37,318 nucleotides of DNA from Saccoglossus kowalevskii (lineage: Eukaryota; Hemichordata; Enteropneusta; Harrimaniidae): the NCBI RefSeq assembly GCF_000003605.2, contig NW_003146281.1, forward strand, positions 392,060 through 429,377. Direction: 5' to 3'. Positions 470-25,847 of the stretch are shown here, one piece after another. Below the pieces are notes generated by a model. The model searched no databases. It worked only from the letters and a program-made list of their open reading frames with translations, and was not told the DNA's origin. Position numbers and translations under genes: made by a program. How positions within the stretch are numbered: position 1 is the first letter of the stretch; the number at the start of each line of letters is the position of its first letter.

Positions 470-670
470 ATTGTCGGAGAAACAGAAGATGCGCCAATAG
501 GACGTCTGAATTGTAGGGGTTTGTCAGTCGACAAAAATCGTCTCTTGACATCTTGCACAATTCTTTGCCATCCATCGTAAACTGGTGAGTATCAACGTCG
601 TGAAGATTGTACTCCTTTACGGCCCAATCCAACCATTGTATCACGTGGTCGTGGTTCCACATGTTGGGAT
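470..670 (-). CDS. erg: ERG/FLI1-type ETS factor, Pointed-domain exon
   Basis: This 201-bp exon carries most of the Pointed (PNT/SAM) domain, a helical protein-interaction module. The acceptor is TTTCTCACATTAG (AG at 672-671). Its first two bases finish the Asp codon begun in the previous exon (G|AT), giving VPA-DPNMW. Recognisable segments include QWLDWAVKEYNL, MDGKELCKMSRDDFCRL and YNSDVLLAHLLFLRQ, which match ERG at conserved positions. The exon ends CAA T followed by GTGAGT (469-464), phase 1, as expected before the next ERG exon. The loop before MDGKELCKM is one residue shorter than in human ERG (DVDTHQFTMDG against DVNILLFQNIDG). With the two upstream exons this gives 230 residues in the window. 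The ETS DNA-binding domain and C-terminal region are not present and should lie left of position 1. Family assignment is firm. Confidence 0.97.
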
Positions 671-755
671 CTAATGTGAGAAAATGCAAACGAATAGGTC
701 AAGTCGTTGCCATGGTATTAATAATGCAATGAGCCAATATATATATACGCACAAT

Positions 756-784
756 GTTAAACCATAGACCCTCTATGGTTAAAC
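756..784. repeat. Short inverted repeat (hairpin)
   Basis: Arms of 13 bp (756-768 and 772-784) pair with one mismatch around a 3-base loop; the core is AACCATAGA-CCC-TCTATGGTT. It lies just downstream of an (AT)n stretch inside intron 2. It has no run of T to suggest a terminator and no function is assigned. Confidence 0.75.
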
Positions 785-964
785 TATGCATTTTTAAATT
801 CTCATTTAATATCAGAGATAAGGATGTTTGAACTGTTGGTAGTCTGTTCACAGTTCTTCGCACATACTAGTACGTGTACTTCATTTCGCATGGTGCGCCC
901 TCTGTCGGCAAAGCTATATTGTCCATTTAACGAATAGCAGCTTCGGTATACAAAGGCAATCTTG

Positions 965-1115
965 CAGGGGCGGATACAGTTTTTTTATGGGGGGTCCAAA
1001 CTTTAAAATCGACAGACTAAGTTAAAGATTTTGTTATATTATACAAAAACAAATTGAATATTTTTTTCAACGGGGGGTCCGGACCCCAAGAACCCACCCC
1101 CTAGATCCGCCACTG
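965..1115. mobile_element. MITE-like non-autonomous DNA element, 151 bp
   Basis: The ends are inverted repeats: CAGGGGCGGATACAG at 965-979 against CTAGATCCGCCACTG at 1101-1115, whose complement is CAGTGGCGGATCTAG (12 of 15 match). Termini of the type CAGNGGCGGATC are widespread in small hAT-like elements of animals. The interior has GGGGGGTCC near both ends and a perfect 14-bp palindrome GGGGTCCGGACCCC (1074-1087). There is no open frame for a transposase. I could not find a clean 8-bp target duplication, so the superfamily is an inference. Confidence 0.7.
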
Positions 1116-1289
1116 TCTTTTTAATGTGACATGTGTAGAATTAACAAAGTTACTCATATCCACCGTCTGATATCGAGTTTAGTTTCGGAAGTTACAGTCA
1201 CCGTGTAACCATAGTCCCCGTCGTATCTATATACCCGACTTCCAAAGATAGGGAACTTAAACTCCGGACGGGTCAAGAAAAGGTGCTAG

Positions 1290-1460
1290 ACATGGGATGA
1301 AAGCGAATGGGTTAAGACAATTTTAGATTTGGTGGGATATGGTGCGAGGGGTGGGATAGGGTTCGAATGGGATGGATAGGCTGGAAAGAGACAGGATGTG
1401 CTGGAAGAAACGTGCATGGATTGCATAGAAAAACAGATAGGATCGAATGAGATGAGATGA
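1290..1460 (+). repeat. Degenerate G-rich GGGATRGG-type low-complexity tract
   Basis: Purine-rich sequence with many loose copies of GGGAT, GGATAGG and GAATGGGAT, ending in GATGAGATGATAC. The copies are too diverged to define a unit. It is probably a decayed simple repeat. Confidence 0.45.
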
Positions 1461-3775
1461 TACTCGATAATTTATGAAATGGGTAAATTATTACTGCTGA
1501 TTATATGGTAAAGAATATTGATACAAAATACTATTATTATCAGGCACATGTCAGTTTACCTGTAATCGTAAGAAAGTAAGAAAAGCAGACAGTAACTATA
1601 AAAGTAATAGGCCAAATGTAGGGAAAGCATTAACTACAATGAAATGCACCAGCGTCTGACCAACCCGCCCTTCAGTCAGGCTAATTATGAGTCCCAGCGT
1701 GGTAGGCGGTGTGTGTTTGACGATATTATTATTTATCGTTATCAGCGACCAACCGAAATCTATAAATAGTTCTTTCTTATCAACGGAAGACAGCTTAGGA
1801 ACGAAAATAAAAATAAACTTTCAATAGTGATTCTGAGTTCCTGCTATTATTATACCACGTTTCCTCGATATTGTCCTCGGAAAACCTGAGGGAAAGAATT
1901 AGGATATCCCTATGTTTCCTATGATTTGAAGCTGGAAGTACTCAAGCAAGTGGAAAACGGGCGCGAATCCCTCCATCACACGCGACGCGATATTAGATCA
2001 CAGAATCAGAATTGGGTTAAATCGTTGTAGTCGCCACGTGGCGCGTTTAAATCTGTGTAAACAAACACTCTACTGTATTTTACACACATGGGACATGGGA
2101 CCCACGTTGAACACGGTGCGGTGTGGAGGCTGTGGCACTTTAATGTATATTTCAGCCCACCCGACATCAGAGAGTCACGTGGTTGTAATTTGTATGATAG
2201 ATGCTCTCAGCAGCTTTATTGCACGTTGAAAAAAACAGCACATCTCACACCCACAATAGATCCATTCATAGTTGTCTAATAAATACAAATATCAGTTTTC
2301 GACTTTTCTCGTAAATACGGGATTGTTCAAATTCAATTCGGGAGGTAACTTTAAAAGTTTGCGAAATCTTCGTCAGTAATGTGTATCGCTATTAGTGGAA
2401 ACGATGCGAGTATGATCCACACAAAATACGCCCCTTCCTTTATTTTCAATTTCCTTACAAAATTATAGCTATCGAAAATGGATATTTTAAAGTTTTTGAA
2501 AATTATACGTCCTGGACGCGGTTAATTCATTGTCTCAATTAATTCGTTTTTTAATCTCGTACAGTCATCTGTCAAAAATCGTATTTCCGGCAGATTTGGC
2601 TGTCACGAGATCGCTTCAAAATGAAAAGAACATCGGAAGTCACAGGAAGTCCGTTACATCTCAAAACCGTCAAAGCTGACACGACGTTAGTTAAACAAAG
2701 ACATGTACATTTCATCATGAACAACGTCAGCGAATATGGGACATTTCCATAGAGACACTTTTGCTAGGAGCAAGCTGCCTGCTCGGCCTTGGTGGCCATC
2801 TTGTGTTTGCTCCTTATTTCCCCGATGACAGAAATCTGAAGTAGTTCAGTTTAAAAATTTGGGTGAATTACAAAACACTGCATCTGTTCCATCGCATATC
2901 AAATCGCATATTTCAATTGTATTTTGTTTCAACGACTGTTGGTCGTTACGTTCGCTATTTGAGCAGCGAAATCCACATCAAGGGAGGAGAGACGTTATCG
3001 ACAAATAACATTGTTGAGCAATCGTTGATGATAGAATCGGTTTAGTGTACTCTTGGCGAAACAATCTTCTTAAATATTTATGAATTCCAATGGAGTTGAA
3101 TCAAATCCGCCAATCAACGAGCACATTGCGCAACGACGTCATTTGAAAGTGTCACAATATTATTCAATCGGCCAATAGAAACCTTTCGTTTTAGTTCGAA
3201 TTGGGAAAGTTATAAAAATTGAATATTTATAAAGATGAGGGACATTCAGCTAACTGGTGAATTATCATAATATTTCTTTTGAATTTATAGGTTTAATGGT
3301 AATACCTTGGTTCCTATGCGTTTGTATATCGCGTTAGAGCAGGGTACACCATACAATGTGAGTTGGCGAGACAGTACGGAACATTCCCAGACCAGACTGT
3401 TAGACTGAGAACAGTGATGAAAACAATTAGAAATCTGCTGAATAGTATTGTCCATCTTTATAGTACAAACATTGCGTGCAAAAGCACATGGTTAACTTTA
3501 AACAACGACCTTGTTATAACATGTGACTTGAGTCCCTCGGACACGTGACGTCCTCGCCCGCGACTTGGGCTAACAGGAACAGAATAAGATTATTTTATTA
3601 TATTTGATAAATTTATTTATTTCACCATCGTTGAAACAAATAATACTATACAAAGAAGTATACTTAATATAAACATGGTGAGGACCAATTCGATAATTCA
3701 ACTTATCTAGTCAAGTCTGTAGTTCCAGTGAAGAAACATAGTGGCAAATTGGATGATATGAAAAGCAAAAGGCAA

Positions 3776-3858
<83 letters not shown>
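3776..3858 (+). repeat. (AAT)n microsatellite
   Basis: An uninterrupted AAT tract of 83 bp, about 27 units, in intron 2. The poly-leucine frame it creates on the minus strand is an artefact of TTA repeats. Confidence 0.98.
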
Positions 3859-6720: not shown

Positions 6721-7129
6721 CTGCTGGCACGATAACCCTTCTTTCATGTGTTGTCATGTTGGGTGGTGGCGGCGATGGTGGTCGCTGTTCACGATGTTCA
6801 GAGTACGCTGGGCAGGCAAACTCGCTTCCCACTGTCCCAAGACCTGAGTTTGAAATCATAGAACGCTGACGTTTGACGACGCTACAATCAAGAGGTGACT
6901 CCCCCGTAGCAGTACTCGAAGAAACTGTGTCCATCTCTCGCTTCATCCTGCTCCCAATGATGGTCCAATGTTGTTCTGGTTGATGGTGACTGGGGGCTTT
7001 CAGTTTAGTGACCGAACCGCAACTGTGTGGGAGATGACTGGAGGGTGAGATAGCCACGTTACGAGGAGGGCTGTGTTGGTACTGCGTATCAAACAAAGAC
7101 TGGTCGTCTGAAACCACTGACAAAGCTTC
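6721..7129 (-). CDS. erg: ERG/FLI1-type ETS factor, second coding exon
   Basis: This 409-bp exon encodes 136 codons plus one base. It begins EALSVVSDDQSLFD, nearly identical to FLI1 and ERG, after a pyrimidine-rich acceptor ending TTTCAG (AG at 7131-7130), and ends PPPPNMTTHERRVIVPA with split codon G|AT at donor GTCAGT (from 6720). The middle is low-complexity and Ser/Pro/His-rich. MKREMD at exon residues 62-67 fits the sumoylation consensus (hydrophobic-K-x-E) and sits where FLI1 has VKRE and ERG has IKME. GESPLDCSVVK around residues 76-86 matches the ESPVDCSVSK region of FLI1. In my recollection vertebrate ERG encodes this stretch in two exons; here it is one. The last dozen residues start the Pointed domain. 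The product would be a nuclear DNA-binding regulator, in vertebrates linked to endothelial and blood development. ERG and FLI1 cannot be separated here, as expected of a pre-duplication orthologue. Confidence 0.96.
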
Positions 7130-8494
7130 CTGAAATATACACAGACACATTAAAAACACGCCTGTATGAGCCGGGAAACAAAACGTTATGACTTAGTGTG
7201 ATGAAGCGAACATAGAATAATAATACGCACACTTTCTTAGAGTCTTGGTGCTAACTTTCTTTTACAAGTCAATGAATTTGTTTTTCGTACATGTATTTAA
7301 TTCATAAACAAAGATCGCCGACCTCTTTGCTAAAATGATCGCACGTCAGTATGCGCAAAACATTGGGATTACTGAAGTGATTATTTTTAAGTATGGATGT
7401 TTCGATATTTTGCAATTACAAATGCAATTTGTTGTTTGTTGATTGTGTCGGCATATAACCACCATAATTAAAGTATTACTATAAACGGGGGAAAAAGTGT
7501 CATCACTCACTACTGGACAACCGGAACGGCGTCCAATAAATGAACGACTCGCGTTGCCCATTCGAATTTGACTACGATGTATTTGATTCAGTTCGACGTA
7601 TAATACTGTTAAACAAAAACAACTGGATTCATACAATTTACCCTCATTTCTTTTAATTCATATATTTATATATTTTGTTGATCTCGTAGTATGTGTACTT
7701 ACATTGCGGGCAGAAATTTGGATGGACGGAACACTATGATGTGACATTCGTCTAAGAAAAGAGCGTGATTTACATGAAGAATTTGAAGAATTCGCAAACT
7801 CATCTTTTTGGATTTTTCACAGTTAGATGTAACTTGAAAATAATCATTCATTATGTCGCCACTCAGTTTGTATGTTTCTGTCAATTGTTTGAGGCTGATC
7901 AATTAAAATTAAGGGGTATATATCCGTAGAAAAAACATTTGAGATGTACTGACAGGACAGATTGTTGATATACTTTGCAGAATACGAACGAATCGTAGAA
8001 ATAAACGGTAAGCTGAGTGAATGAGTGGCAGATGAACTTAATTTTTCCTAAAAATCGGCACTACAGTCGCTTGACTCGCAAAAGAAACGTAAAACATGAT
8101 AGATATGGACCGATGCGTGCACCAAATTGATCAAGGAAATGCTGTACAACTCTACGGGAAGTGACAAGGAAATGATTTCAACGGGACGTTGTTCTGTTTT
8201 CAGGCTCTTACATCGACATACAGAGGTAAAAGTAAAAGGAAACAGAGAGTTGAGATTTTATGTGTTTTGATTTTCTGCCTTACTATCGAACGGATGTTTC
8301 CTACACTTATTTTTGCCGGTGATCAGGGAGCGTCCCACCTGTAAACTACATACGTGAAATGAAGGCACATTTCCCCCATGGGTAGCGTCACATTGAAATA
8401 GCTGTGTCCCATGGCAGCAGGTGATTACTTAAACGCGGTTAATGATATAATGTCGAGTTTGTTTTGTTTTCAGAAATTGGAATGTTGCACTTAC

Positions 8495-8515
8495 GTGATA
8501 CCGCACTGAAGACAT
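8495..8515 (-). CDS. Possible alternative first coding exon of erg (MSSVRYH)
   Basis: Seven codons, ATG to CAC, end in phase 0 at a perfect donor GTAAGT (8494-8489), so splicing to 7129 would give MSSVRYH-EALSVVSDDQ. Vertebrate ERG and FLI1 have comparable short alternative starts before the same exon (MASTIK, MDGTIK). A TATA box lies about 200 bp upstream at 8716-8711, and if transcription starts some 30 bp below it, this ATG is the first one in the transcript. The frame stays open upstream, but with no further ATG after the predicted start site. Against it: short open frames ending at GTAAGT are expected by chance several times in an intron this long, and a second one occurs at 15144-15124. 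Confidence 0.3.
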
Positions 8516-8710
8516 CGCGGATATCGGAACAAACTTGTCGGTTGAAAACGGACGCTGATTATGACAAAATGATCGCTTTCCCCTTCCTCCGTTCTGCCGT
8601 GTTTTTGTGAGATATCCTTCTTTCAAAATACTATCTTGAAAAATCACTGTTAGTTTTTCTGCGATGCTTTGATTGGTGACCACTAAGGCATACCTAGTCA
8701 CTACCGGTCC

Positions 8711-8753
8711 TTTATAGCCCACACTTGCAAGGACCCCACAACTGACCAATCAG
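8711..8753 (-). promoter_or_regulatory. Candidate internal promoter: TATA box with CCAAT box
   Basis: On the minus strand CTATAAAGG (TATAAA at 8716-8711) is preceded about 30 bp upstream by ATTGG within CTGATTGGTCAG (8753-8742), an inverted CCAAT box. A further inverted CCAAT motif is at 8674-8670. The spacing suits a core promoter starting near 8685 and feeding the candidate exon at 8515-8495. This rests on motifs only, and such motifs are common in AT-rich DNA. Confidence 0.25.
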
Positions 8754-9360
8754 CTACTTTTTATAGGGGTGGTAGCTACTAATGCGGAGGGGATATTCCA
8801 CTTCCTCAGCTAACGTTATAATATATATCCCATTGTTTTTCAGCGACTAACTATAATAGGTAGATTTTGGAGTACACTTACTATAAACTAACTTTCCCTT
8901 TCTTATCCATCCCATTTACATACCAACCTCCCCCTCGTCACAAATTGTACGTTCCGTCAAGAATATTGAATTTTCAAAACAAGTTAATATAGCAGATATG
9001 AATTATTCATGAACCCGTCGCTGCACTGTACTTAAACAAGCTCAGAGAATAGGTAAGGCATGTGGTTTCGGCGAACCGTAACAGAAATTAATGAAACTAC
9101 AAGCAACACTCAAATAAATCAGCCTGCGAGCCACGAATCAAGCCCTGCATTAATTATTCACTTCTTCCGGTTTTTTAATATTGCTTTGAAGTGAACGATC
9201 ATCTTTAGCTGGGCGTTATCATCATTGTAAAAACTATTGAATCACAGAGAGCATTAAAGTTACATCGAGACTGGATTACCCACTCGTCCGTCCACAACTA
9301 ATGAATAGCGCTTCGAAAAATGATAACGTTCCGACTTGCATTCGCCCGCCCGGGAATATA

Positions 9361-9680
9361 GCGTCGAAGGGGAGGGAATCGAAGCAGATATGTCTACGTG
9401 AACATCGGAGGGGGGGGCTATACTTGAAAGGAGACATTTTGCGGGGATATCCCCTTAAACATCGAAGGAGAAGTTTAAAGCAGACATTTGCCGGGGATAT
9501 TCCCGTAATATTGAAGGGGGGACTCAACTTGAAAGCAGAAATTCTCCGGAGGATATCCCCGTAAACATCAAAGGGAAGGGTACTCGAGCAGACTTTCGTC
9601 GAAGATATCCCTGTAAACATCGGAGTGGATGGGACCCAAAGCATACATTCGCCGGGGATATCCCCGTAACATCGAAGAGA
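9361..9680. repeat. Degenerate ~50-59 bp minisatellite centred on GGGGATATCCCC
   Basis: About six copies share a block around GATATC followed by CCCGTAAACATCGAAGG and AGCAGACATTYG. GATAT cores start at 9387, 9446, 9496, 9552, 9604 and 9657, so the spacing is 59, 50, 56, 52 and 53. In the best copies the core is the perfect palindrome GGGGATATCCCC. The open frames on both strands here come from the repeat. It lies in intron 1. Confidence 0.85.
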
Positions 9681-10992
9681 GTCAAATCACACGTTATTTG
9701 TTAAAAATCAACAAGCATTGCTCAATTTTATTTTATCGTGGTATACCACTTAGACTACCTAAAAGTTGTAGGACATTCAAAATAATAATTTATCCGTATT
9801 TCAAAAAAAATTAAATAAATAAATTATAAAAAAAGTTATGTGTATTATTCACTGACGTGGCAAACGCACACTCTTTGGCGGATTTCATTCTCTTTTTATT
9901 AGTCAGTTTGTATAGTTTTCTCGTCTAAATTGATTTACTCAAATTCGACAGCAGCACGAATCTGATATTTTGTAGCTTTTGGAAAGTGATCGCAAACGTT
10001 GATGAAAGACGTTATATCCGTCTCAAAATTAAAATTTGTTGATTCTCACCTCTGCGAATATGTCTTACAAAACTGTACACTGCTACACAAAGACATACAA
10101 GTAAATTTCTTTACTTTTTTAATGGTATTTAAAAAAGGCTAATACTGAAAGCGCGTGAGAACAAAGCCATCACCATAAACGTTGAGAGGAGGCCGTCCAT
10201 ACGTCAGCGGAGAACACAATAGCAGTGACAGTGGCGCCTGGCTTGTGTCGCGTTGTATTGGAACTCAGGCACCGTAGAAATGCTGTGTTGCAGGTGTTTC
10301 TACTAACTTAAATGCTTTTTCAACATCATGCATTAATTTATGTTTTAACGTCATATAAAGCGCATGGGTTTATTGAAACGGCCAGGCCTGTCCGCGTTCG
10401 AATTGAACACTCCCACGGCTCCGTTTTAAAAACGGCTCGGATACATTTAATTGAATATGGCCGTTCGACAATATATATCGCAAATATTCTCGCGACGTTT
10501 TTGTTTGATTGCAATGATTTGATTGTTGTCCGGGAGTTATGATTGCCGCCATGCACTATTGAAATCACCGATAGGATTGGAGGACACATCCGAGTGATTT
10601 CCCGCCAAGCCGACTGTCTCTTAAACTCAACTCTCTTTTCAATTGGGCGGTTATTATGTTCCATTTCACCTGTCCGTTTTATCCAAATCAATGCTATTCA
10701 TTTTATGCGATTTTGATTGTTGAATCGACGCAAATTAATAACGATTAAAACATACTAAAGTACTTTTCTATTTGCACGCTTACGTGAAGTCATCTAGTAT
10801 GCATGCAAGCTGTATATCTAGCTTTCATAGTTGAATTTCGTTCAGAGAACATTACCCGTTTCAACAATTCACATGGGTTTTATTTATATGACACGTTCAT
10901 CTGTTACAATATTAAGTGAATTTATTTATATGAATGCCGCAACTGGTCGGTCAATTTACGGACATTTCATCATACTGTTACTTCCCGGCGTT

Positions 10993-10993
<1 letters not shown>

Positions 10994-11073
<80 letters not shown>
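10994..11073 (+). repeat. (GATT)20 microsatellite
   Basis: A perfect 80-bp tract of the tetranucleotide GATT in intron 1. No interruptions are visible. Confidence 0.98.
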
Positions 11074-11897
11074 TCAAAATGCAAATAATGCAGAATTGGG
11101 ATTTAGGACGGACTCACATTTCCACCAATGAACCATAATTTTCGCCTTATTTCGTTTTAATTAGTTGATAGAAAGATATTATACAGTATCTATCTCAATT
11201 GGAAATATCGTAATATATGTCATAAGTCGAGTACGGCATATGTAGCCATGTTGTAGCCGTATTCAAGTTAGGACATTTGAAATAAAGCCGTGTTCCCAAT
11301 TACAAGATACTACAGGACTGAGTAGTTGTTACAGCCATTAATCGTATATTTGTATGAAATACGGTTAATTATACATTCAACTATCTATACAATGCTAAAA
11401 CTATAGGCAAGAAACAATTTCTTGTATGTCCCATAATTCATCGCGGCGATATATTATGTGGTATATTTCACGTCAATAAAACCATTCTCGTGCTTCCTGT
11501 CAGCTATGATTTGTCTAATTTACTAAGTTTTATGGGACGAATCGACTGAGAAAACATGAAATTTAATTTCAGCAAACGATGGAATCGTTTCCGTTCTTTC
11601 CAGTTGTCTTCCATTTTTAAAATAGTAGTCTGTCTCATACAAGGCCGCCGCGCAAGAGCTAGTGAGTGTCCCAGGTGAAGGAATCTAGACGTTACTCGGC
11701 TCAAATCGGGTAATTTTTCCCAGCAAAGCTTTTTTGTATTTTTTATTGTTAATTTTGAACCAAGTTGGCTAAATGTTCTAATATATGAAAAAGTACAGTG
11801 TAAGATGATAATGCTAATACCACGCTGTTGTCGTAAATGGACTTCTTTGCCATGATGTGTTATACATTGAGTGCAATTTGAATGAATGATAACACTA

Positions 11898-11928
11898 CCT
11901 CCCTTCTCTCCACCTCCCCTCCCCTCCC
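11898..11928 (-). repeat. Polypurine tract, possible G-quadruplex in the erg transcript
   Basis: The minus strand reads GGGAGGGGAGGGGAGG followed by TGGAGAGAAGGGAGG. Four runs of at least three G occur, three of them separated by single A. The G-rich strand is the erg coding strand, so the pre-mRNA would carry it. Folding is predicted, not shown. Confidence 0.5.
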
Positions 11929-12545
11929 GAGTCACAATAAAGATTTCGAACGGCTTCGTAATTAGTAGTAGTTTCAAATTGAATTGCAAATATGTTATCA
12001 CGTTATCACGTTATTCAATTCTACCTCATATTAGGGGACATTTCAGCAATACCCTTATGAGAAATACATCTGCCGTTTTCATTGACCGTAGCTTCCTTTG
12101 CAGTTTCCGCTAAAAATGCATAGTTGATTCCATGTGAAATTAACAACAAACTCTCAATGAAAGCGACACGATATGTTGAATTTCAATTGAACATATAAAA
12201 TAAAAACATTCCACGCACATTTTGTTCGTTTCGGTGGTGCAGTCGGAATTGTGTACAACCCCATGACCTATATTGTCATTTTTAGTAATGATGAATTATA
12301 ACAGCAATACTTCTTAATATTATGCTTCAAAGTTGGTGTATTTTGAATTGAACACACTGGTACGTGCTTTAAATGAGATTACAAATACTTTGTTATTTTG
12401 TTGTTAAAATATGTTCACCAACAAATGAGAAATGCGCATAATTAAGAAGAGTTTGCCTCAACGAAGTAGTAAAAAATCGCATCATTCGTGAATTCTAAAA
12501 AATGAGCCATATTTTGTTAGGCAATATCATGAGATGTCTATTTAA

Positions 12546-12629
12546 CGACAGTGGTTGCCGTGACGAGTCGTGGTTGATATGTGAGTCCAACGCGACGTAC
12601 AACATAAATTGGTTATTTACATGAAATTC
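12546..12629 (+). repeat. Dispersed repeat fragment, copy 1
   Basis: About 85 bp resembling the stretch at 22756-22846, with shared blocks GATATG, GCGACGTA and TTATTTACATGAAATTC. It is probably a remnant of a dispersed element. Similarity stops at the right edge of both copies, right after TGAAATTC. Confidence 0.4.
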
Positions 12630-15600
12630 TGTGATGTAGTTCCATAGAAACAATGAAATTGCGATTTACCCCGTACTGATAAAGTTAGTCAAAATACTTT
12701 TTGTACTTAGAAGATTTATACATTAAAAACTTGTCTGGGTACCCCGAGTTATTTATTTTAATGGTCAGTCACTAGGCTAACTTTCCTGTATCCGCGCGCA
12801 AACTTCAATATTACAAAGATGTGAAACATTACCGATGGGAGACAACAATATTCCTGGAAACCGTTTTACTAATCTTTTAATGTCTTCTCACTTTTGACAA
12901 AAATACGATGACGAGCTGGCCCAACTGAACTACTTAACTGATGTGTACCACGCCCCACACCCATTACATCCACGCTGGGTTATCAACACGTGCAACTGTA
13001 CTTTTATGATGCATACCCATTTAATATTCGCAAGAACATACACACTATTATTCCATTATTTAATTTTTAATGGCACTGTTAAATTCGTACTAAGCGCGTT
13101 GTCATCACCTGCATGCGCATAACCCACAAAGTCTGTATTTATGAAATTGGTCTTATTAAGGTGCATATGTCTAATCCTGAAAACCATTGAAAATAAGAGT
13201 ATATATTTTATATTTAATATTATTATATTATCTAATTATTTTATTTAAGACGGCCCACAAATCTGTGTTCTGATTTGGATGTAATGACAGTCGCTGTATT
13301 CTATTTGTTCATACTTGTATTATCGAAAGAATATTGACGAAAATAAACAATTTAACTTTCATTTATTGCTTACTATATTCATAGCACTGTGGGTTTTTTT
13401 ATAAACCGACTGAAATTATTCATGTAGCCGTGAATGACAATTGCGCCGACGACATTGACAATGTACAATGTGAAATATTGAATATATAAAAATACTATGA
13501 CAACTAAGATTTACCAACAATTGTCTTGGCATTGGTGAAATAGTAATAATTCGTGAACAAATAAAAAATAAACGAATATCCGAAAATATGAAATATTAAA
13601 AAACTATGTTTTTATTGAGAAATCTGAGATGAGACTGGGGACGGGACAGCTGAAATGTTGAAATATAATTTATACATGCACTATGAATATGAGATAACCG
13701 CGGAAATGAACGCACTTTTAATGACATTTTGGGAGGTGAATTTCAATGAAAATAGATCGATTCGCACGTGATTGTCGAGCACCGTCCATTGTCATCACCA
13801 GGACAACGACACGTGATGAGCACCTGCAGCGCTTTGAGTGACATATACGTCCATTTTGTATTATGACAATGAATAAATATACGATAATTGACAAAAACAG
13901 TCTTTTTCAAGAAAATACCATGCATTTAAAAACAAAAAATGATGTTTTACATGCATGTGTCGGCTTGCGATGCGTACCCGTGTGATCGTATCAGAACCCA
14001 TTGCGAGCACGTGACACATGTCGCTGATGACGCTTGACTTCTGAACAACAAAGTGATTCTGTAGTGTACCCATTTATAAATGACGGTGTAAACTACCGCA
14101 GCTTTTTTCAGTTTTCTAAGTAATTTTTTTACGCTATAACAAATTAAAACAAATAAATGAGGAATCTCAGAAACAAGTTTACGCAGTTATTTATGAATAG
14201 ACCAGAGTAAAGGCGGAAAAGCGACATATTTGTTTTAATTTTAGTGATGGTACATTATATTATTATATTTGTGAGGACATTTTAAATACATAAAACGTAA
14301 ACATAGTGCTGGTCGTTAAATCAAGTTGGTAGCCAGGGACCTTAATCAGATGACGATATTATAGAAGCTGCGATATCAGAACTATGCTCAGAATTCTACT
14401 TTTTTTGATGTTTCATAGTAGTAAAATGTTGGAATGGAAACGATTTTGTCATGGAACCCAATCTATCCATCTTCCGTCTCATCATTATTACGGGTATTTA
14501 ATTAATTTATCAGAAGCCTATATTGACTTTATTTTCATCTTTAATTTGGATGAGGTTATGGTTATGGCACGTGTTTATATTTGGAATTATTCCCAATGTT
14601 AGTTAGAGGGCGCTATTGTTAAAAAATGTGTCTCCAGGCCGGGCGAGAAGGTCCCGTAGAACTTTGGAACTTTCTGTCCAAACTGACAACGAGGCTGATA
14701 TCTTCGTATTGTGTTGAGATGCAAACGCTTTATTTACAGCCCAAGCCATTATCCGGTGAGTGTACCGGCATACCTAGTCCGGGAAGTTATAATCCATACG
14801 GTGCATAAGTTTCAACAAAGACATCATATAGTAATATGTACGGATTAATCGCAAAGTGCTCATGAAATGGCACGTAAATCGCCGTGATAATTCACATCGA
14901 TGTTTTTCATCATTGAAGTGATTTTAACGGTAACTTATTGCGTCTGTAAACTTCATTTGTCAGATCACCTCCACGCCAATAAACTGCCTGCATGAGTTTA
15001 CATAGTAGATTCCTAAGCGGAATGGCAACGAGTCATTATACAGGGGGAATAAGTTTTCTACAAAAACGTTTCACTAGAAATAGCTACGTGAGTTGGTGGT
15101 AACAAACAAAAACAAAGACTTACTTCATTAGCAGAGCGGGTCATTTTTTAGGTGAAATATTTAGCTGGTACGTGTATGATGGTAGTCCGTCTGAGTAATG
15201 AAATCATCAAGGTATGTTGGATGTATTAAATCGTAATCATCTACTGAGTCACCTTAATAAACTGCCCAGACAATCAGAAACGAAGGTCAATGACCGGTAC
15301 TTCTGTTTTATTCTCCACTGTCTTCCTGTGCTACACGCATGCGTGGGTGTTCTCACTGTGCGTTGATGTGTCATTTCAGGCACACGAATTGCGCCCTCAT
15401 TTGCCGAAATTTGTTTTAAGTTCTACAATCTCGTCGACTTTGGCTCTCCTGGGTCAATTATATATCTGGCATTTTGTGTAGTTAGACAAAAAGATGGTGT
15501 GTTTGATTTGAAGGTTTGCGTGGGCGGTGTAGCACTAAGCCCGGCAGCTAACTCGCCAGTCTGGAGTCAGTTGCGGTTGGAAACCCAATGTTGGGGGCCA

Positions 15601-17280
15601 TTGTCTCCTAATGTCTCTTCGAATTACTAGCAACAGGCATATTCCGATCACTGATTAACCATTAAATGATATTAAAGAAGAATAAACAAACTTTGCCTTG
15701 TCTGATGCCAGAAAATAACTTTTTATGACGCAGCCAAATGTAGTTTAATGTCGATATTAAATTGATACCAAGGTAACAGTCCGAGTACTCGTAACTTATA
15801 ACATTCATGGCGAATGAAACCAGCGCACACCAGTGACCATGCCATAAACAATGACGTCACAGGGTGTGGCGAACATTGAAGTACTGTTTTCTATCATGAG
15901 TTTGTTTTTACTGATACTGAAATAAAAGGTTAAAACTGTCGATCATATCGAAAAAAAGTAACTGTTACTGACGATAAATTAATATCCTCAGCATAGTCCT
16001 TCAGTTTAAGTAACACTGGCATTTCAGATAGCCGTTCCTATTAACTGTATTCATGCTTGAACCTCATGTGAATCAGTCGGTATAAAAACAGATTGTTAAT
16101 AGCCGATGGTAGTTGGAAAACATTGATTCCATTCTTATAAACTTCAAGTTATCAAGGGGTGCTCAACTGTGACCAGGCGCTTTACGCATAGCGATCAGTT
16201 CGTCCCAGGCTACACGAAGCGGTAGCCGACTATGACCGATGCAGTACGGTAACATTTGCGATAGACACGGGAAACATGGCTTAAAACGAAATATTCAAAT
16301 CCAATCACATATTGAGATATCACCCATTCGGAATATTGAACACAGCGCAGAAGTAAGCTATGGGGGAAGTTGAAGGACTTTCAGACTGAAAAATAGCGAC
16401 GAACAAGCGAAAACGTTAAAATCGAATCGGATAGGGGAAAGCAAGATGGCGGCACTGTCACTGCTTTGTAAGAATTCGTTGCCATGAAATGTGGAAAACA
16501 AGTTCCAGATCAATGACGACATCGTCCACCGTGCTGATTGCAACAAAATCAATCTCAATTCTTTTTGTTATGTTTTTCCTTCAACTACCAATAACAACTA
16601 CTCGTATGAGTCAGGTTGAATAAAGCAAACCGGGGAAACCAACTAGTCACCAGTTCACAACAAGTCGATGACACGTACATTGTGAAGTACATTCAATGAG
16701 TAGACGGTAATACTGTGCGGCGCAAATTAAAAGAGGTTAAGATCCAGTCACAACAACGTATTTAAGTTTTGAGCTCAAATTTTGTTCCCGCTCAAAATTG
16801 AGTAAATTTGTTCAAATTTTCTGTGAATTTCACTGAATTCATTATTAATTTTGGACCAAACAGGCCTAATGTGACATTGCTTATAGTTTTTGATAAAAAA
16901 AAATATAAATTTTCGTCAACATTGTCTGTGTAAAAGAGCAGACTATAAAGTAAACTATTGTATGGATGATGACTGCAGTTCAATTTCAGCTCTCAAAGTG
17001 TTAACATTATTTTGACGATTCTGAGTTTGACCTTCCTCAAATTGGCAAAGTGGCATAAGCCACGTCAAAGTTTGTTGCTGTATTGCTATGGAAAGAAAGT
17101 TTTTTTTCAAATATAAACTTACACTGACATCAAAATAACAACTTATTGACGAAATGTCATCGTCGGGAAGTTAATGTGTGCTTCCGTGTTTTTCACAGAC
17201 TCAGTGCAAATGCACTGCGCATTTGTGCGTTTGTGGTCGAACATGGCGCCTCTGAACAGAAACGTCATTTGGTGTAGTTT

Positions 17281-17450
17281 GGCAGTCCAGTTTCGCTGTC
17301 CAGTTTGGCAGTCCAGTTTGGCAATCCAGTTTGGCAGTCCAGTTTGGCTGTCCAGTTTGGCAGTCCAGTTTGGCAGTCCAGTTTGGCAGTCCAGTTTCGC
17401 TGTCCAGTTTGGCAGTCCAGTTAGGCAGTCCAGTTTTGTCGGTCTAGTTT
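17281..17450 (+). repeat. 13-bp minisatellite GGCAGTCCAGTTT, 13 copies
   Basis: Thirteen head-to-tail copies of GGCAGTCCAGTTT with few substitutions; the CGCTGTCCAGTTT variant occurs at copies 2 and 10, and the last copy is a diverged 14-mer. Because 13 is not a multiple of three, the frame returns every 39 bp, which gives an apparent Gln/Ser/Phe-rich 13-residue peptide repeat on the plus strand. Confidence 0.95.
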
Positions 17451-17796
17451 AGCCTCTCGGGCTTCGTAGAGGTTATGTAAAATACAGGATACCTTGCATG
17501 CATCACAACGTACACCACTAAATTATATAATCTTTAACAATTATTATTAATAGTTTATGTAAAACTGTGTTCCTTGTTGGGATATGCTAACATACTCATA
17601 AATGTTTTTATTTTCATCCGTAGCGTATTATTTGAAAGATATATCTATATTGTGTAATTTATTGATATAGAATTGACTGGAATAATTTCAAGTTAAGATT
17701 GCCAGTCTGATAGCAATGTTGAGACCATAGCTCTGTATTTAATAGGCTGTATAGGAATGATTTAATTCGTATTTCGTTATTATATTTTTACGGTGA

Positions 17797-18610
17797 AGAA
17801 TTAGATTATTATTAGCATTGCTTTATTTTGTATAAATTTTGCTGGACAGATGCTGAAAAAAACATTGCTGTTGAAACCTTGGTATAGAGTGCATCGATAA
17901 TAAGGATTATTGCGACTAGAAGCAACACATGGACTTTGAAGAAGTTATGCTCCTCGGTTGACAGGAAAAATTGTTAAAAACGTTCTCAAATGTTCATCAA
18001 CTAATACAAAATATATCCAATATCATTTTGGTAACAACTACCCTGAACTCGTGCGTCATTGAAATTACCGCCATAAGGAACGATGCTCCGCCGATGTGTG
18101 ATAACGTGGAAAACTCGATCTTACGAGTGTCTCTTATTTTTAATTGAAATGTATCAGTTAGCATCTTTAATGCCTCTTCATAAGATAGTGACATTTGTCC
18201 TGTTTTCTGGGCACTGGTTACTGGTGGGTTGAATTTGACATTGACTATTTAAAAAGCTGTCGAAATCTTGTTTAATCTGCATCTCGTGGTAAACCAAATT
18301 GACACTGCTACAAACTTGAGTTCATCGACATTTAGCTGATTAATTTCAAAAAAATATTTCTAATTATTACATTATTAATAAACCGTGGCTTTTATTTTAG
18401 TATTAAACCGCAAACAAGTCTGTGTAAAACTGAATTCCGGACATCGCTCTAGACGCTGATACGGCGAGACTCCGAGTCGATGCTCAGCCTCGCCGCTGAT
18501 GATTAAGCTCGCAACACGCAATAATCTTTATCAATAACACACTTTCTCATAATTTTCTGTAGTTTATCTAATTACCATAAATTTGTCAAAGACGTTCACT
18601 TCTTTCTTTT
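17797..18610. repeat. Tandem segmental duplication, copy A (~814 bp)
   Basis: This segment is repeated in the same orientation starting 856 bp further on. Matching landmarks include AGAATTAGATTATTA, GCTGGACAGATGCTG, GTGCATCGATAAT, AACCGCAAACAAGTCTGTGT and TTTGTCAAAGACGTTCAC. Flanks of each copy differ by indels and many substitutions, while about 250 bp around 17970-18210 are nearly identical. Copy A has an extra ~32-bp stretch near 17930-17961. On the minus strand it includes a 65-codon open frame (18194-17997) that I do not recognise. Confidence 0.92.
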
Positions 18611-18652
18611 GCAAGTGGCGTTAGTTAAACAGTTATTATATAGCTGCTGTAA

Positions 18653-19490
18653 AGAATTAGATTATTAGAATTGTTTCTTTTTAAGTCAATTTGGCTGGAC
18701 AGATGCTGTAAGGAAAACATTGCTGTTGAAATCTTGGTAGAGTGCATCGATAATATGGATTATTGCGACTTGAGATAACACGTGACAGGAAAAATTGTTA
18801 AAAACGTTCTCAAATGTTCATCAACTAATACAAAATATATCCAATATCATTTTGGTAACAACTACCCTGAACTCGTGCGTCATTGAAATTACCGCCATAG
18901 GGAACGATGCTCCGCCGATGTGTGATAACGTGGAAAACTCGATCTTACGAGTGTCACCTATTTTTAATTGAAATGTATCAGTTAGCATCTTTAAGGCCTC
19001 GTCATAAGATAGTGACGTTTGTCCCGTTTTCTGCATGGACACTTGTAACTGTTATTTCCGGTTACGTGTGACATTCAATGTGCACATGACATTGACATTT
19101 TAAAAAGTAGTCAAAATCGTGTTTTATCTACATCCCGGGTAAACCGGACTGGCACTGTTACAATCTTAAGTTCATCGACATTTAGCTGACTAATTTCAGA
19201 AGACGTGGAGTAAAAAAGTGTGAAATTGAGGGAATTGACAATGTGAATATTAATGAGTAGTATATCGCGACGTCATGATGTTTAATTTAGTTTTAAACCG
19301 CAAACAAGTCTGTGTAAATTCCGGGCATCGCGAGTCTCGACGCGGATACAGCGAGACTCGATGCTCAGCCTCGCCGCTGATGATCAAGTCTGCAACACGC
19401 AATAGTATATACTAATAACACACGTTCTCATAATTTTGCGTAGCTCATCTAATTACCCTAAATTTGTCAAAGACGTTCACATCTTGGTTT
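18653..19490. repeat. Tandem segmental duplication, copy B (~838 bp)
   Basis: Second copy of the duplicated segment, directly after copy A. The minus-strand open frame at 19042-18821 matches that of copy A with about five substitutions, of which at least three change the amino acid, and both end at the same TAG. The ATG used in copy A is ACG here, so no common start codon exists. High identity begins just after a CAG on the minus strand, which could be a splice acceptor, but no polypyrimidine tract supports it. Confidence 0.92.
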
Positions 19491-19639
19491 TACGAGTACT
19501 GTTAGATTACACGACGAACTAACTGTGTTATTCTCGAAAAAAAAAACATAAACTGCAAGGGTGAGTACGTGGTTATTACAAGATTATATTTACTCACGTA
19601 AATAAAAAAAATTAGTAAGTTTGTCTATCATGATTTTGT

Positions 19640-19935
19640 TCAATTCAATAAGTTTATCCGTTTACCGTTTAAGTTTGTAATTTGGTAATTTATAGTTGAA
19701 TTTATAGTTTGCCAGGTTTCTGTTGGATTTAGTAACTTTGTCACTCACGGTTGAAAGTAATAACTTTGACAGCTTACGGTCGAAATTATTAAATTGTTTG
19801 TTTACGGGTTCTATTTGTTAATTTTCAGTTGAATTTATAATTTCGCCCCTTCACGAATAAATTAAGCAGCTTTGCATGTTTACAAACAAATTTCGTAACT
19901 TTGTCCGTTTACGGTTGAAGTTCGTGATTTTATTT
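19640..19935 (+). repeat. Diverged repeats of an AACTTTGTCCGTTTACGG-like unit
   Basis: Loose repeats of TTTATCCGTTTACCGTTTAA, TAACTTTGTCACTCACGGTT, AACTTTGACAGCTTACGGTC and AACTTTGTCCGTTTACGGTT, interspersed with AATTTATAGTT blocks. Spacing is irregular. It looks like an old, decayed tandem array right of the segmental duplication. Confidence 0.5.
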
Positions 19936-21850
19936 TTCTGTTCAGCACATCTATAACGCGTTCTTCAGTATGAAGTCACGTGGTTACATTTATAAAAGTC
20001 AGTATTCTACTTGAATCCCCTATTATTGATTGAAATGTGATCTATTTACCTGCTGATCGGATCACCCACATAGTACAGTGCAAATAACTACCAGGTATGT
20101 GAAATACACTACAATACAACATGTAATTATCGATGATGTGCATTTCCGAGTCCCCCTCCTGATAGTAATATAAAGAGATTCAGATAACCCCAATTTGAGG
20201 CCACACACTGTGAAGCGGGGGCAAGTGAACCACCCGAATCACATTAAGTTCAAAGTCTGCTAAAATATGAAAATACTCCTATTTTAGCATTATTAAACGC
20301 ATAATGCGTACTTTAAACCACATCTGAATCGACGTATTGCAATATGTTAAGCTGTAATTACCAACTTGAATGTAACGGACACACGTGGCAAAACAACATC
20401 AATTTATTATTTTGTTTCTAAATTTCTATTAAACAAAACGAAAATCAAATTTGTAATTTGTTTTCAAAATGCTGCTAAACAAACACGAACCACAAAATTA
20501 GTCATGTTCACAGCATACTGTGTATTTGAAAACACAACAGGAAATATTGCCATTCAGTCTACAAACTTGAATCATCCATCGGTTTGTACTCTAATTATAA
20601 TATGTGATTCAATGTTTACAAAATATGTCTGGATTATAAATATTTTCATGAATTTATTACGCTTCACAGTTCCCTTCTAGGCGCCAATTTACTTTTGTTT
20701 TAAATCTCAAACAACCAAACCGTCAGTGAGCGAGTTGATATACACCATTATAATCAGACAGAATTTGATTGGTCCGGTCGCAAAGAACATCACGAATGTA
20801 TTTTACAATTTTCGCGATCTCCGACTGCCAATAAAAGTTACAAGTAATCTCTATCAGAATCCTAATCATAATATCTAAATGCCCATTTCATTGTAAGTAG
20901 TCAAAAGAAACGCGCGAAAGGCAAACAAAAACAATTATTGTATATTTCTTACTAAAAATGTTATGCGAACAAAAGTTGATATTTTAATTTCATGCTTGGT
21001 GCTAAAACAGCCCAAGAACAACACAAATCTGTTTACGACAAGAATATAGACCCGTTGTCGACAACAGTTATTGACGGGTTGTTTTTTGCAGAACAAAAGA
21101 TTATCAAAGAAATTAACCAGATGAACCATTAAATAAAATGTTTTTTTCTCACATAATCCATGTTAATTTCAAGCGTTAAGTAAGCAGTGCATTCCGTTAA
21201 TTAACGTCTAATTTACTATCCCGTTTATGTAGTTAAAAAGCACAACAGGAAGTAACATGGACAGTGTCCAGAACGCGACACGGTCGACAGTATAATTGGC
21301 GACCTTCTTCTGCAGGTCTATGGTATACAGTAATGTTTGAACACCCTGAATATAAGACTTGAATAACTCACTGGTAAGGCGTCGCAGATGTCCCTGCTTA
21401 GATCCATGTCAAGTCAAAACAAATAATTGTATTTTCCACACACTCCAATCAAAGAACGTGCCGACTGTTCTGTTTCCTACACTGTAGTAAAAGTCCTCGA
21501 ATATAGTCCGTATATGGAGAGGGTTTTCAGTAAGACAAAAAATAGGTCCAAAGATAGCGATTAACCAATGAATGAAGCGATGGGTGGCGGTCAAATAACT
21601 TAGCATAAAAAACAGACAATTTGGCGTGGGTGGGGGTTATAGACGGTGTATTTGGACTCGCTTAGTGACTTAGAATCGGATACGGGGCAAGGGTGCAACT
21701 TGAGTCATTGTAAACTTGTCACAAGCTTCATGTACGGTATAGTGTGTCCAAGAAAACGATGAACTCCATTCATCTTTCAGTAAATACCGTGTCGGCCGCC
21801 AATGGTACCGGTGGCAGCGACATCAGCGATCGTTCCGCCTTTCGTGACCA

Positions 21851-22306
21851 TGTCGACCAACACGATGTTTTGCAAGCATTGCGCGGTGTCGCGTTTTTCC
21901 TATCGACCAACAAGTGCACGGTGTCTTGCAAGCATTGCGCGGTGTCGCGTTTTTCCTGTCGACCAACAAGTGCACGGTGTCTTGCAAGCATTGCGCGGTG
22001 TCGCGTTTTTCCTGTCAACCAACAAGTGCACGGTGTCTTGCAAGCATTGCGCGGTGTCGCGTTTTTCCTATCGACCAACAAGTGCACGATGTTTTGCCTG
22101 CATTGCGCGGTGTCGCGTTTTTCCTGTCAACCAACAAGTGCACGGTGTCTTGCAAGCATTGCGCGGTGTCGCGTTTTTCCTATCGACCAACAAGTGCACG
22201 ATGTTTTGCCTGCATTGCGCGGTGTCGCGTTTTTCCTGTCGACCAACAAGTACACGGTGTCTTGCAAGCATTGCACGGTGTCGCGCTTCCAGTGACCGCC
22301 AACAAA
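21851..22306 (+). repeat. 56-bp minisatellite, 8 copies
   Basis: Eight copies, with GCGCGGTGTCGCG starting at 21881 and then every 56 bp up to 22273. The first copy is 50 bp and the last is diverged at its end. Two variants alternate: ACGATGTTTTGCCTGC and ACGGTGTCTTGCAAGC; copies 4-5 and 6-7 are the same dimer, so a 112-bp block was duplicated. The unit has no stop codon in several frames, which gives overlapping open frames of 154-203 codons on the plus strand and 87-105 on the minus strand. These are best read as products of the repeat. It is much more GC-rich than the surrounding intron. Confidence 0.96.
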
Positions 22307-22512
22307 AGCTACACTGGGTCGATAACTTCACCGTTTTTAATTACGGAAAGAGTAACACGGAAGAAGCAAGGATTATAACGCCGCTGATTCAACTCAGAAA
22401 TATTTATCAGTGAAAGATATCCTTTATTCGTCTAGCGCAACATGTGGTCCACACCAGTGTACTTACGACAAGAACTGAAATTACCTGAGTTCACAAACTT
22501 GCCTACAAATGT

Positions 22513-22610
22513 ATGTTCACTGCTATCAATTTCCGTGATTTTATATTTTGATACGAAATTTTGAGAAAATCACTGAGTGGAATGTTCACTGCTACTAAAT
22601 TGCCATGACT
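22513..22610 (+). repeat. Imperfect direct repeat, 69 bp apart
   Basis: ATGTTCACTGCTATCAATTT at 22513 recurs as ATGTTCACTGCTACTAAATT at 22582, each followed by a CCRTGAYTT-like block. Two copies only; no function is evident. Confidence 0.6.
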
Positions 22611-22755
22611 TGCGAGACTCGGAAACATTTGTATATCACGAGATTAAAGCGAAACAGTAGAGCGAAAGTCGTATAGACAATTTACAATATATATCAATAT
22701 AGATGCCACAGTCTCCGCCTTAAAATGAAATTAATGGCCTTCGATATTTTAAAGG

Positions 22756-22846
22756 GCGGCAGTCGTCGTGCCGCGTCCTGTTCGATATGGGACTCATAGC
22801 GACGTATACAACGCGTGTAAAATACATTGTTTATTTACATGAAATT
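22756..22846 (+). repeat. Dispersed repeat fragment, copy 2
   Basis: This is the partner of the fragment at 12546-12629, with shared GCGACGTA and TTTATTTACATGAAATTC and an internal insertion of about 6 bp. Probably a diverged dispersed element. Confidence 0.4.
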
Positions 22847-24521
22847 CGAACACGCGCTGCGCGACAGCCACCGCGCTTTAAATAACTGAATAAAAGTAGA
22901 TATCATATTATAAACTTTATTTATATGAGACTTGCCCAGTCCACGTGTACGATTATTGACACCATGTATTGTCTTTGTACCAAATTTGCACAAGATTAGT
23001 GAAATTGCAATTCCATGAGAAATTGATAGAACACATAAATTTTGAACAAATCGTGAAATTGAGAACCACGTGCACGAGTTACCCACTAGGTACAACACCA
23101 AGTTTCAGTGGTTTGGTGACAACAATGGCCAACGAGCCGCGCACAGAATATCGAAACGAAAAAAAAAATAATATCAGTGTGCATTGTTTTTGTATCTGCT
23201 TTGGACAGAATCGATCAAGGTATTGAGAGAAATGGTCGAGAACACATGAAAATAAAACTACCATGGTCGCTTGTCAGCCATATTGAATCACAAGTAACCC
23301 ACCAAGGAATACCCGAGAAATCCGGTCGATATTACCTACCCCGCCCACCGTATTCGAGTAGATTCAACCAATCCTACAAATCCGTTCACTAAACATACTA
23401 TGATACACACATACATACAATGTTGAATGTATAATAACTATACCGATATACAATGATACTTTGCAATTAGACGAACGTCGTGAGGATTCGCATATCCTCG
23501 GGGCGGAACAAAACGTTCCACGTTACTAAGACGCGCACCACTGGGCTCTGCGCGCGCTGCCGGGGAACGCCGAGCGAAGAGCCGGTAAAAATTCGAGAAA
23601 ACAACAGGAACTCATCTCTGAAGTAATCCTGAACAATCAAATTTATATGCGTTACATACGCAGGGATAATCTTGTTACACTGTTCAGGGGAGTCTCAACA
23701 ACCATCCCAAAGTACAGTTTTCTGAGAGTTTTCGGCCTTTGTTTTCTCCGTGATGGTTGCCATGCGGTGAAAATGCCCGGATGTCCGCCCCGAGAATTGC
23801 GCCAAACTCCAATTATTTAATAGTAAGAGAAAGTAACCGTTGTCATTCCCACGGTCATCGAGGACAGTCGGGAATGTAATAAATGCGATAATTACAACGG
23901 AAAACTATAGAAAAGATGTGGTTAACTACGAAGCCAACACGTCGCTACATACTAAATAAATGACGGGGAATACAATCCGTGAGTTTTTTTTACACCTAAT
24001 GTGTTATTTCTACATCATCAATGCAACTACTTGGCTAGTATATAAACACCCGCCACAAAACGCGACAAACGCGGTCGATCACCGACAAACAACAGCACAA
24101 AGAGTCTTGTTTTCACGCATGTCTGCACCTAGTTTGTCGTAAAACGCCATGCAAATTGAATTAACTACAGCAAAGCGATCAACTCAGTGTTTTATTGTAA
24201 CGACGTTGAACAAAGAGCCATATGTCTGATGACCCAGTTCCAGCAATGATGTCTCCCAATGCTACTATAAAATCATGTCTGTATGTCTATTTGACTGTCT
24301 ACTATGGTGGTCCTAGCATCTCCTCCCTTTAATGCACTTTAAAACGGTAAAATATTGCACCAAATCTCAAAGTATTCACGCTGCATTATTGGTTAGTCTC
24401 GCGTGAACCTCGAAAGTTTGGCTTGCAGTAATAAGTTTTTAAAAAGCAGTTTTACCAATGTTTCACGCCAATGTTTTATATAAGGATATTTTTTCTGAGG
24501 ATATAAAAAAAATCACTTAAA

Positions 24522-24556
24522 AATATATATATACATGTATATATATATATATATAT
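24522..24556. repeat. (AT)n tract with palindromic centre
   Basis: An AT dinucleotide run interrupted once by ATACATGTAT, so that the tract is self-complementary around ACATGT. It is likely to form a cruciform or hairpin but is otherwise a simple repeat. Confidence 0.9.
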
Positions 24557-25766
24557 CAGAAGATATCACTGGAATAGCTGCAGAAATATATGTTTTGGTT
24601 TCGTTATATGAAATGATTGTTGAGTAAAGAAAGATTGCAGCCACTCAATAATACAAAGCAGTCGACCGGATGTTCGGTCTTCCACTGACACCAGTTTTAA
24701 AATGCAACGGCTAGAAACAGTGCAGATTCGTTCGAAATATTAATGAAAAGTTTCAAAATTTGTTCAGTGATGATTATAAATATCATTTTTTTTAGGAGTA
24801 TTGGTATTAGATTAATTATAATAAGTTTGAAACACAGCACAAACGAATTGTTGCTTCATTGAATTACTGACCTGTGTGCCGAGCTGTCGTTCGTGTTGTG
24901 ATGGCAAATGTTCTAAAAAATACTATTTTTTCACACCTTGGTGCGATGAACAGTTTACGTTCCTTTGGCGCCAATAAAGTACCTGGCAACTTTTTACAGG
25001 ATTCTTAAGAAGTTAAAGAGCAGGGTTGTAGCATTACCTCTGACTTGGCGTGGTGATCCTAGTATTCAACTGATCTAATTCTTCACCAAGGTTTTTTTTT
25101 TTACAAATGCCTTATGTTCGATAATCACTCAATCCGGGACGTCGCTTTATCAGAAAACGTCGATAATGTATAAAGTAACGCATCCACGTCTCAAAAACGG
25201 TGCACAATTCGGGTATACACTGAGATTATAGGGACCACAAAATGAATAATTATATTTGTTTTAGTGATATTAGTTATATTACGTCATATCCTTACAGATT
25301 TGGCATATAAGACCAGAAATGACAATAAAGTAAGTTATATCATCGCCTATTGTAATTGAGTGACGTCATAACTTCCATAACCGTAAAGACAGAAAACTCG
25401 CACTATCGCACTTGATTTTTTTATTCTGAGGTGATAAAATTGAATTCTATTTTGTTTAAATCACAATTCACGAGAATTTAATTAACCTATGACTATAAGA
25501 CAGTTGACAATTCTCAACATCGTTCGAACACAGCTTCAAGTAACCATGGCAACTCGGTAGGAAACGATTATACGAGGATACAGTGGACATTGATCGCGTA
25601 GTGTATTTAGTAGGGCACAGACAAATAGAAATACTTCGCTGGTCAATTCCAAAATTGATGCGCGCGCGTTATTTCTTTTATGTGATTCGGGGGAAAAAAT
25701 TAAAAAAGGACATGGTGCACACAATAACCGAAGCGCGCGATGACCAAAAACAGGAATGGTACTTAC

Positions 25767-25847
25767 TTCATCAAGTTCGTTTGCATCTGGTACCGTCTGA
25801 TTTGCATCTGGTACTGTCTGGTTGTAGGTCATGTTGGTAACGTACAT
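25767..25847 (-). CDS. erg: ERG/FLI1-type ETS factor, first coding exon
   Basis: This is the N-terminal coding exon of an ERG-subfamily transcription factor, 27 codons from an ATG at 25847 with A at -3 and an in-frame TGA 42 bp upstream. It ends in phase 0 with GAA followed by a perfect GTAAGT donor (25766-25761). The decisive sign is the motif QTVPD, known from the start of long vertebrate ERG isoforms (MIQTVPD...), directly before the EALSVV exon. Here the motif is doubled: QTVPDAN occurs twice, encoded by adjacent 21-bp units at 25800-25820 and 25779-25799. The exon joins in phase 0 to the exon at 7129, giving ...NELDE-EALSVVSDDQ. A second in-frame ATG, codon 6, is also well placed and aligns better with the human start. 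The splice over 18.6 kb is inferred, but motif, phase and donor agree. Confidence 0.8.

Follow-up and report, generated by a model that had tools for sequence, protein, structure and literature searches.

The window analysed here, a 37,318-nucleotide stretch of Saccoglossus kowalevskii DNA, very probably contains the 5' portion of an ETS transcription factor gene of ERG/FLI1 type, from a probably non-vertebrate animal, with a small first coding exon that would correspond to the human ERG exon for MIQTVPDPAAHIK and be ancestral to both ERG and FLI1. This explanation is supported by the exon boundaries and phases, the PNT match, the ordered DPYQ and ETS exons downstream and a unique QTVPD peptide at the human spacing, as well as by the silent-only differences between two 21-bp copies of that peptide's coding sequence, the presence of one ERG-type and one Ets1/2-type PNT, and a divergent Ets1/2-type neighbour. 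In the genome search the window was placed at C3684:392060-429377 of a 572-Mb assembly of 4830 contigs. It contains zero N and has 38% G+C, and the sequence flanking it reads N on both sides.

Three coding exons lie on the minus strand. Exon 1, the first coding exon (25847-25767, 81 nucleotides), comprises the 27 codons of MYVTNMTYNQTVPDANQTVPDANELDE and ends in phase 0 at the donor GTAAGT. After a first coding intron of 18.6 kb (7130..25766), exon 2 (7129-6721, 409 nucleotides, EALSVVSDDQSLFD...PPPPNMTTHERRVIVPA) is entered at the acceptor TTTCAG, which is followed by GAAGCTTTG, and ends in phase 1 at GTCAGT. Exon 3 (670-470, 201 nucleotides) encodes the bulk of the PNT domain, has the acceptor CATTAG and ends in phase 1 at GTGAGT. 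The coordinates, boundaries and phases of all three exons agree with those given in the original prediction, and its "first exon" is better called the first coding exon. The tenth codon 5' of the first ATG is an in-frame TGA. By a consensus matrix, the donors of exons 1, 2 and 3 rank 36th, 7th and 21st among 2340 minus-strand GTs. By pyrimidine content, the exon 2 acceptor is unremarkable (330 of 1664 AGs are equal or better), and that of exon 3 is equalled or surpassed by 64 of 1664. No convincing exon was seen between 469 and 1 among the frames read from AGs. A bacterial-type promoter scan 5' of exon 1 is uninformative for an animal gene.

The peptide QTVPD occurs twice in the six frames of the window, both times within exon 1, where two tandem 21-bp copies (25820-25800 and 25799-25779, together 25779..25820, minus strand) each encode QTVPDAN and have two differences, both silent. 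Six residues separate the second QTVPD from the junction, the same number as in human MIQTVPDPAAHIK before EALSVV. Vertebrate ERG had been said to carry QTVPD directly before EALSVV; the order is right, but "directly" is not, as the two are six residues apart both in human ERG and, counted from the second copy, in the window. A dinucleotide model predicts 0.0096 QTVPD per window, and about 4e-6 with the human spacing ahead of one of the 33 good donors upstream. In the junction region 13 of 20 residues are identical to human ERG. Pfam gave no match for the 27 exon-1 residues alone, and no further QTVPD was found in the readable part of the neighbouring contig stretches scanned. Taken together, QTVPD, its spacing and the junction match support the small exon as the counterpart of the human ERG exon for MIQTVPDPAAHIK.

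The assignment of the gene to ERG/FLI1, likewise made in the original prediction, is supported by the PNT scores and by an ERG-type ETS exon downstream on the same strand. The joined translation matches Pfam SAM_PNT with an E-value of 2.2e-25. Against PDB, the PNT domain scores 126.9 bits with FLI1 (second chain 120.2) and 123.8 with ERG, and the best of the other single-domain matches, ETS1, scores 55. Scores of 119.5-120.9 bits for four ETV6 concatemer constructs are sums over three repeats, none of which exceeds 42 bits in the alignments shown. The EALSVVS motif, which opens the shared N-terminal exon, is present in exon 2. Beyond the window, a DPYQMFGPASSRLANS (DPYQ) exon at 370464 and an ERG-type ETS exon at 365658 (exon A, L002), 26.9 kb downstream of exon 3, follow on the minus strand and are presumed to continue the gene. 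Both have AG acceptors, the phase-1 end of the DPYQ exon, at GTGAGT, fits the ETS exon, and the best PDB matches of exon A are FLI1 (224.2 bits) and ERG (218.3). The contig carries two more ERG-type ETS exons, each accompanied by a separate DPYQ exon and C-terminus: exon B (L003, C3684 280618, minus strand) and exon C (L001, C3684 273317, plus strand).

For human ERG, PMC8345871 gives the N-termini MAST and MIQTVPDPAAH. The human junction can be put directly before EALSVV because the TMPRSS2-ERG fusion peptide, as printed in PMC7683782, reads DNSKMALNS and then EALSVVSED. A splice-blocking oligonucleotide on the human exon-4 acceptor spans TTCAG/GAAGC (complement worked out by hand) in PMC7493922, which also states 218 bp for exon 4. 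From the same paper, we infer that exon 3 of PMC3589450 is the MIQTVPD exon. In the open literature, MIQTVPD, QTVPD and EALSVVS appeared in 2, 3 and 1 papers, respectively, which dealt with human cancer or, in one case, were unrelated; the titles and abstract openings listed held nothing on a QTVPD exon in invertebrates, a weak negative, as sequences are seldom printed. To our knowledge, human FLI1 usually starts with MDGTIK and lacks QTVPD. No match to MDGTIKE was found in the open literature.

Genome searches scored the best candidates only, and the counts of PNT, EALSVV and ETS matches are lower bounds. The 572-Mb genome has at least eight PNT matches, one of them ERG-type (the window gene) and one Ets1/2-type (L009), and one EALSVV exon was found. 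The Ets1/2-type PNT lies on the same contig and scores 82.3 bits with single-domain ETS1 vs 48.8 with ERG, the ETV6 concatemers summing higher; the ETS exon of this gene scores 169.9 with ETS1, 166.7 with ETS2 and 119.4 with FLI1. The remaining six PNT matches reach at most 40.2 bits with ERG, which is still the best single-domain chain for L015 (31.0) and L016 (33.8). Alongside the one PNT-bearing copy stand the two ERG-type ETS units B and C without PNT. PNT identity is 56/82 between window and ERG, 53/82 between window and FLI1 and 60/83 between ERG and FLI1, so that the window lies about equally far from both. At the 23 sites that separate the two human proteins, the window has the ERG residue 7 times, the FLI1 residue 4 times and neither of them 12 times. 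This comparison, which draws on the slender basis of two human sequences, places the window gene outside the ERG/FLI1 pair. Such a pattern would be expected of a gene that split off ahead of the ERG/FLI1 duplication. Since the exon is common to human ERG, the QTVPD exon was most likely present before the ERG/FLI1 split, provided that the species branched before the vertebrate duplications. That the long ERG N-terminus predates the split, as had been proposed, is well supported by the PNT distances, the one PNT-bearing copy found and the exon common with human, but not proven; the exon comparison covers human and the present genome only.

Several points weigh against this interpretation. The donor of exon 1 has the weakest score of the three, 7 of the 20 aligned junction residues differ from human, and the residues between QTVPD and the junction are unlike (ANELDE here vs PAAHIK in human). 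Some of the stretch that links exon 3 to the DPYQ exon reads N, and the splice path to the ETS exon is presumed. In PMC7493922, a skipped-exon peptide would place EALS in exon 3; nevertheless, this peptide conflicts with the oligonucleotide of the same paper and with the fusion peptide. According to PMC3589450, the exon-3 start of native human transcripts is unused in transfected cells and translation begins in exon 4. It could also be argued that the QTVPD frame is open merely by chance and the real first coding exon lies elsewhere, for example one of MxxTIK type, as open phase-0 ATG frames are common, 11 of the 33 good upstream donors closing one. Yet QTVPD at the human spacing is found in only one of these 11, where about 4e-6 were expected across all donors, and a search of the window's minus strand 5' of exon 2 with two patterns yielded no alternative first exon of MxxTIK type. 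A chance first exon was discarded on the uniqueness and spacing of QTVPD, and this whole account is considered very improbable. A real QTVPD exon that is one among several alternative first exons, with another start further upstream, stands at about even chances and is compatible with the explanation preferred here. The three promoters and three N-termini of human ERG, as given in PMC3589450, speak for it; on the other side, no alternative first exon was seen within the window, and its flanks read N.

Two other rivals concern the age and the 3' end of the gene. If it were a vertebrate ERG after the duplication, nothing would follow for FLI1. The 7 ERG-like vs 4 FLI1-like PNT sites lean that way, but ERG and FLI1 are nearer to each other than to the window gene, only one ERG-type PNT, one Ets1/2-type PNT and one EALSVV exon were found (lower bounds) in 572 Mb, and exon 2 continues past the point where the 218-bp human exon 4 ends; a post-duplication ERG is therefore regarded as very improbable. 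The window exons might also be spliced to ETS exon B, which follows A at a distance of about 85 kb, A and B being alternative 3' ends. B is indeed on the same strand and a second EALSVV or ERG-type PNT exon was not found; against this, B comes with a DPYQ exon and a C-terminus of its own, and C, which is built alike, lies on the opposite strand and must be driven by a separate promoter, which leaves such a shared 5' end unlikely.

In the favoured explanation of an ancestral QTVPD start, a distant upstream promoter would supply the QTVPD N-terminus, and exon 1 would be spliced across 18.6 kb in phase 0 onto the EALSVV exon. A phase-1 junction would link the latter with the PNT exon, and the transcript would presumably run on via the DPYQ exon to the ERG-type ETS exon beyond the window. 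The first exon would have been ancestral to ERG and FLI1 and then lost or gone unused in FLI1. Because the peptide is conserved, translation from its start codon probably takes place in some tissue, despite little use in transfected human transcripts. If transcripts confirm this structure, the QTVPD start would date from before the ERG/FLI1 split and have persisted since then, an argument for a function in the animal.

The gene annotation is sound and its evolutionary point modest; the homogenised ETS core of exons A, B and C is the more unusual feature. Codons 3-66 (192 nucleotides) are identical in DNA across all three. Silent differences at codons for the same residue amount to 1/66 (A-B), 1/66 (A-C) and 2/66 (B-C) in codons 1-66, to 2/20, 5/21 and 3/21 in codons 67-88, and to 26/47, 27/48 and 24/47 after codon 88, where Fisher tests of codons 1-66 vs those after 88 give p values of 9.9e-12, 4.3e-12 and 1.4e-9, respectively. 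The DPYQ exons differ silently at 7/14, 6/13 and 8/13. For both ETS and DPYQ exons, the acceptor supplied the opening base of the first codon in these counts, a G in all of them. A 64-column run of identical residues without a silent difference arose in 0 of 20,000 shuffles (119 columns, 30 differing). Between Ets1/2 and A, 23 of 57 shared residues show silent differences, and codon choice is therefore free to vary in the wider family. The simplest explanation would be gene conversion limited to the DNA-binding core; the identity may also stem from an assembly artefact or from constraint acting on the DNA. With their identical core, these exons would offer a clear case in which to test concerted evolution of a DNA-binding domain. 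The titles and abstract openings listed from the open literature held nothing on conversion between ERG paralogs, again a weak negative.

Among the genome PNT matches listed, none lies near B or C. A hand alignment of 35 C-terminal residues gives 21-24 identities among A, B and C, compared with 17-20 of 34 to ERG or FLI1. B and C may be lineage-specific copies, and conversion could itself produce the C-terminal likeness. It is perhaps an even call whether these are three neighbouring ERG-type genes whose core is homogenised by recurrent conversion, only one keeping the QTVPD N-terminus and PNT, so that a shared DNA reader would be combined with three diverging regulatory halves.

Besides the gene, the window contains several repeats. 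Two minisatellites lie inside the first coding intron, one of 56 bp (7.6 copies, 21861-22285) and one of 13 bp (12.4 copies, 17276-17436). A 54-bp tandem array at 35421-37315, with 35 copies at 91%, has long open frames on both strands because its unit is a multiple of three; a Bac_rhamnosid_C match in its frame exceeds the cut-off, but no stretch does so alone, and it was rejected as a repetition artefact. Pfam searches for other genes in the introns covered 10 of the 33 frames of at least 90 amino acids (the array frame partially); array aside, five gave weak matches or none below the cut-off. The window showed no Rfam family and no tRNA.

Compared with known systems, the gene resembles human FLI1, which is the best PDB match of both its PNT domain and the presumed ETS exon A. 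Human ERG has a single QTVPD, whereas that of Saccoglossus exon 1 is doubled, and what human ERG divides between exons 4 and 5 would be covered here by exon 2 alone. The Ets1/2-type gene (L009, L004) lies at C3684 493501-495391 on the plus strand; about 76 kb separate its PNT exon from exon 1, and the two genes are divergent. Human FLI1 and ETS1 are also neighbours. An ERG-ETS2 neighbourhood in human is indicated by "ERG-ETS2 interval", a title cited in PMC3589450. Three ERG-type ETS exons on one contig are unlike human ERG. The PNT-bearing gene that presumably includes exon A and the PNT-less units B and C may parallel Drosophila Ets21C and Ets65A, PNT-bearing and PNT-less ERG-type genes, respectively.

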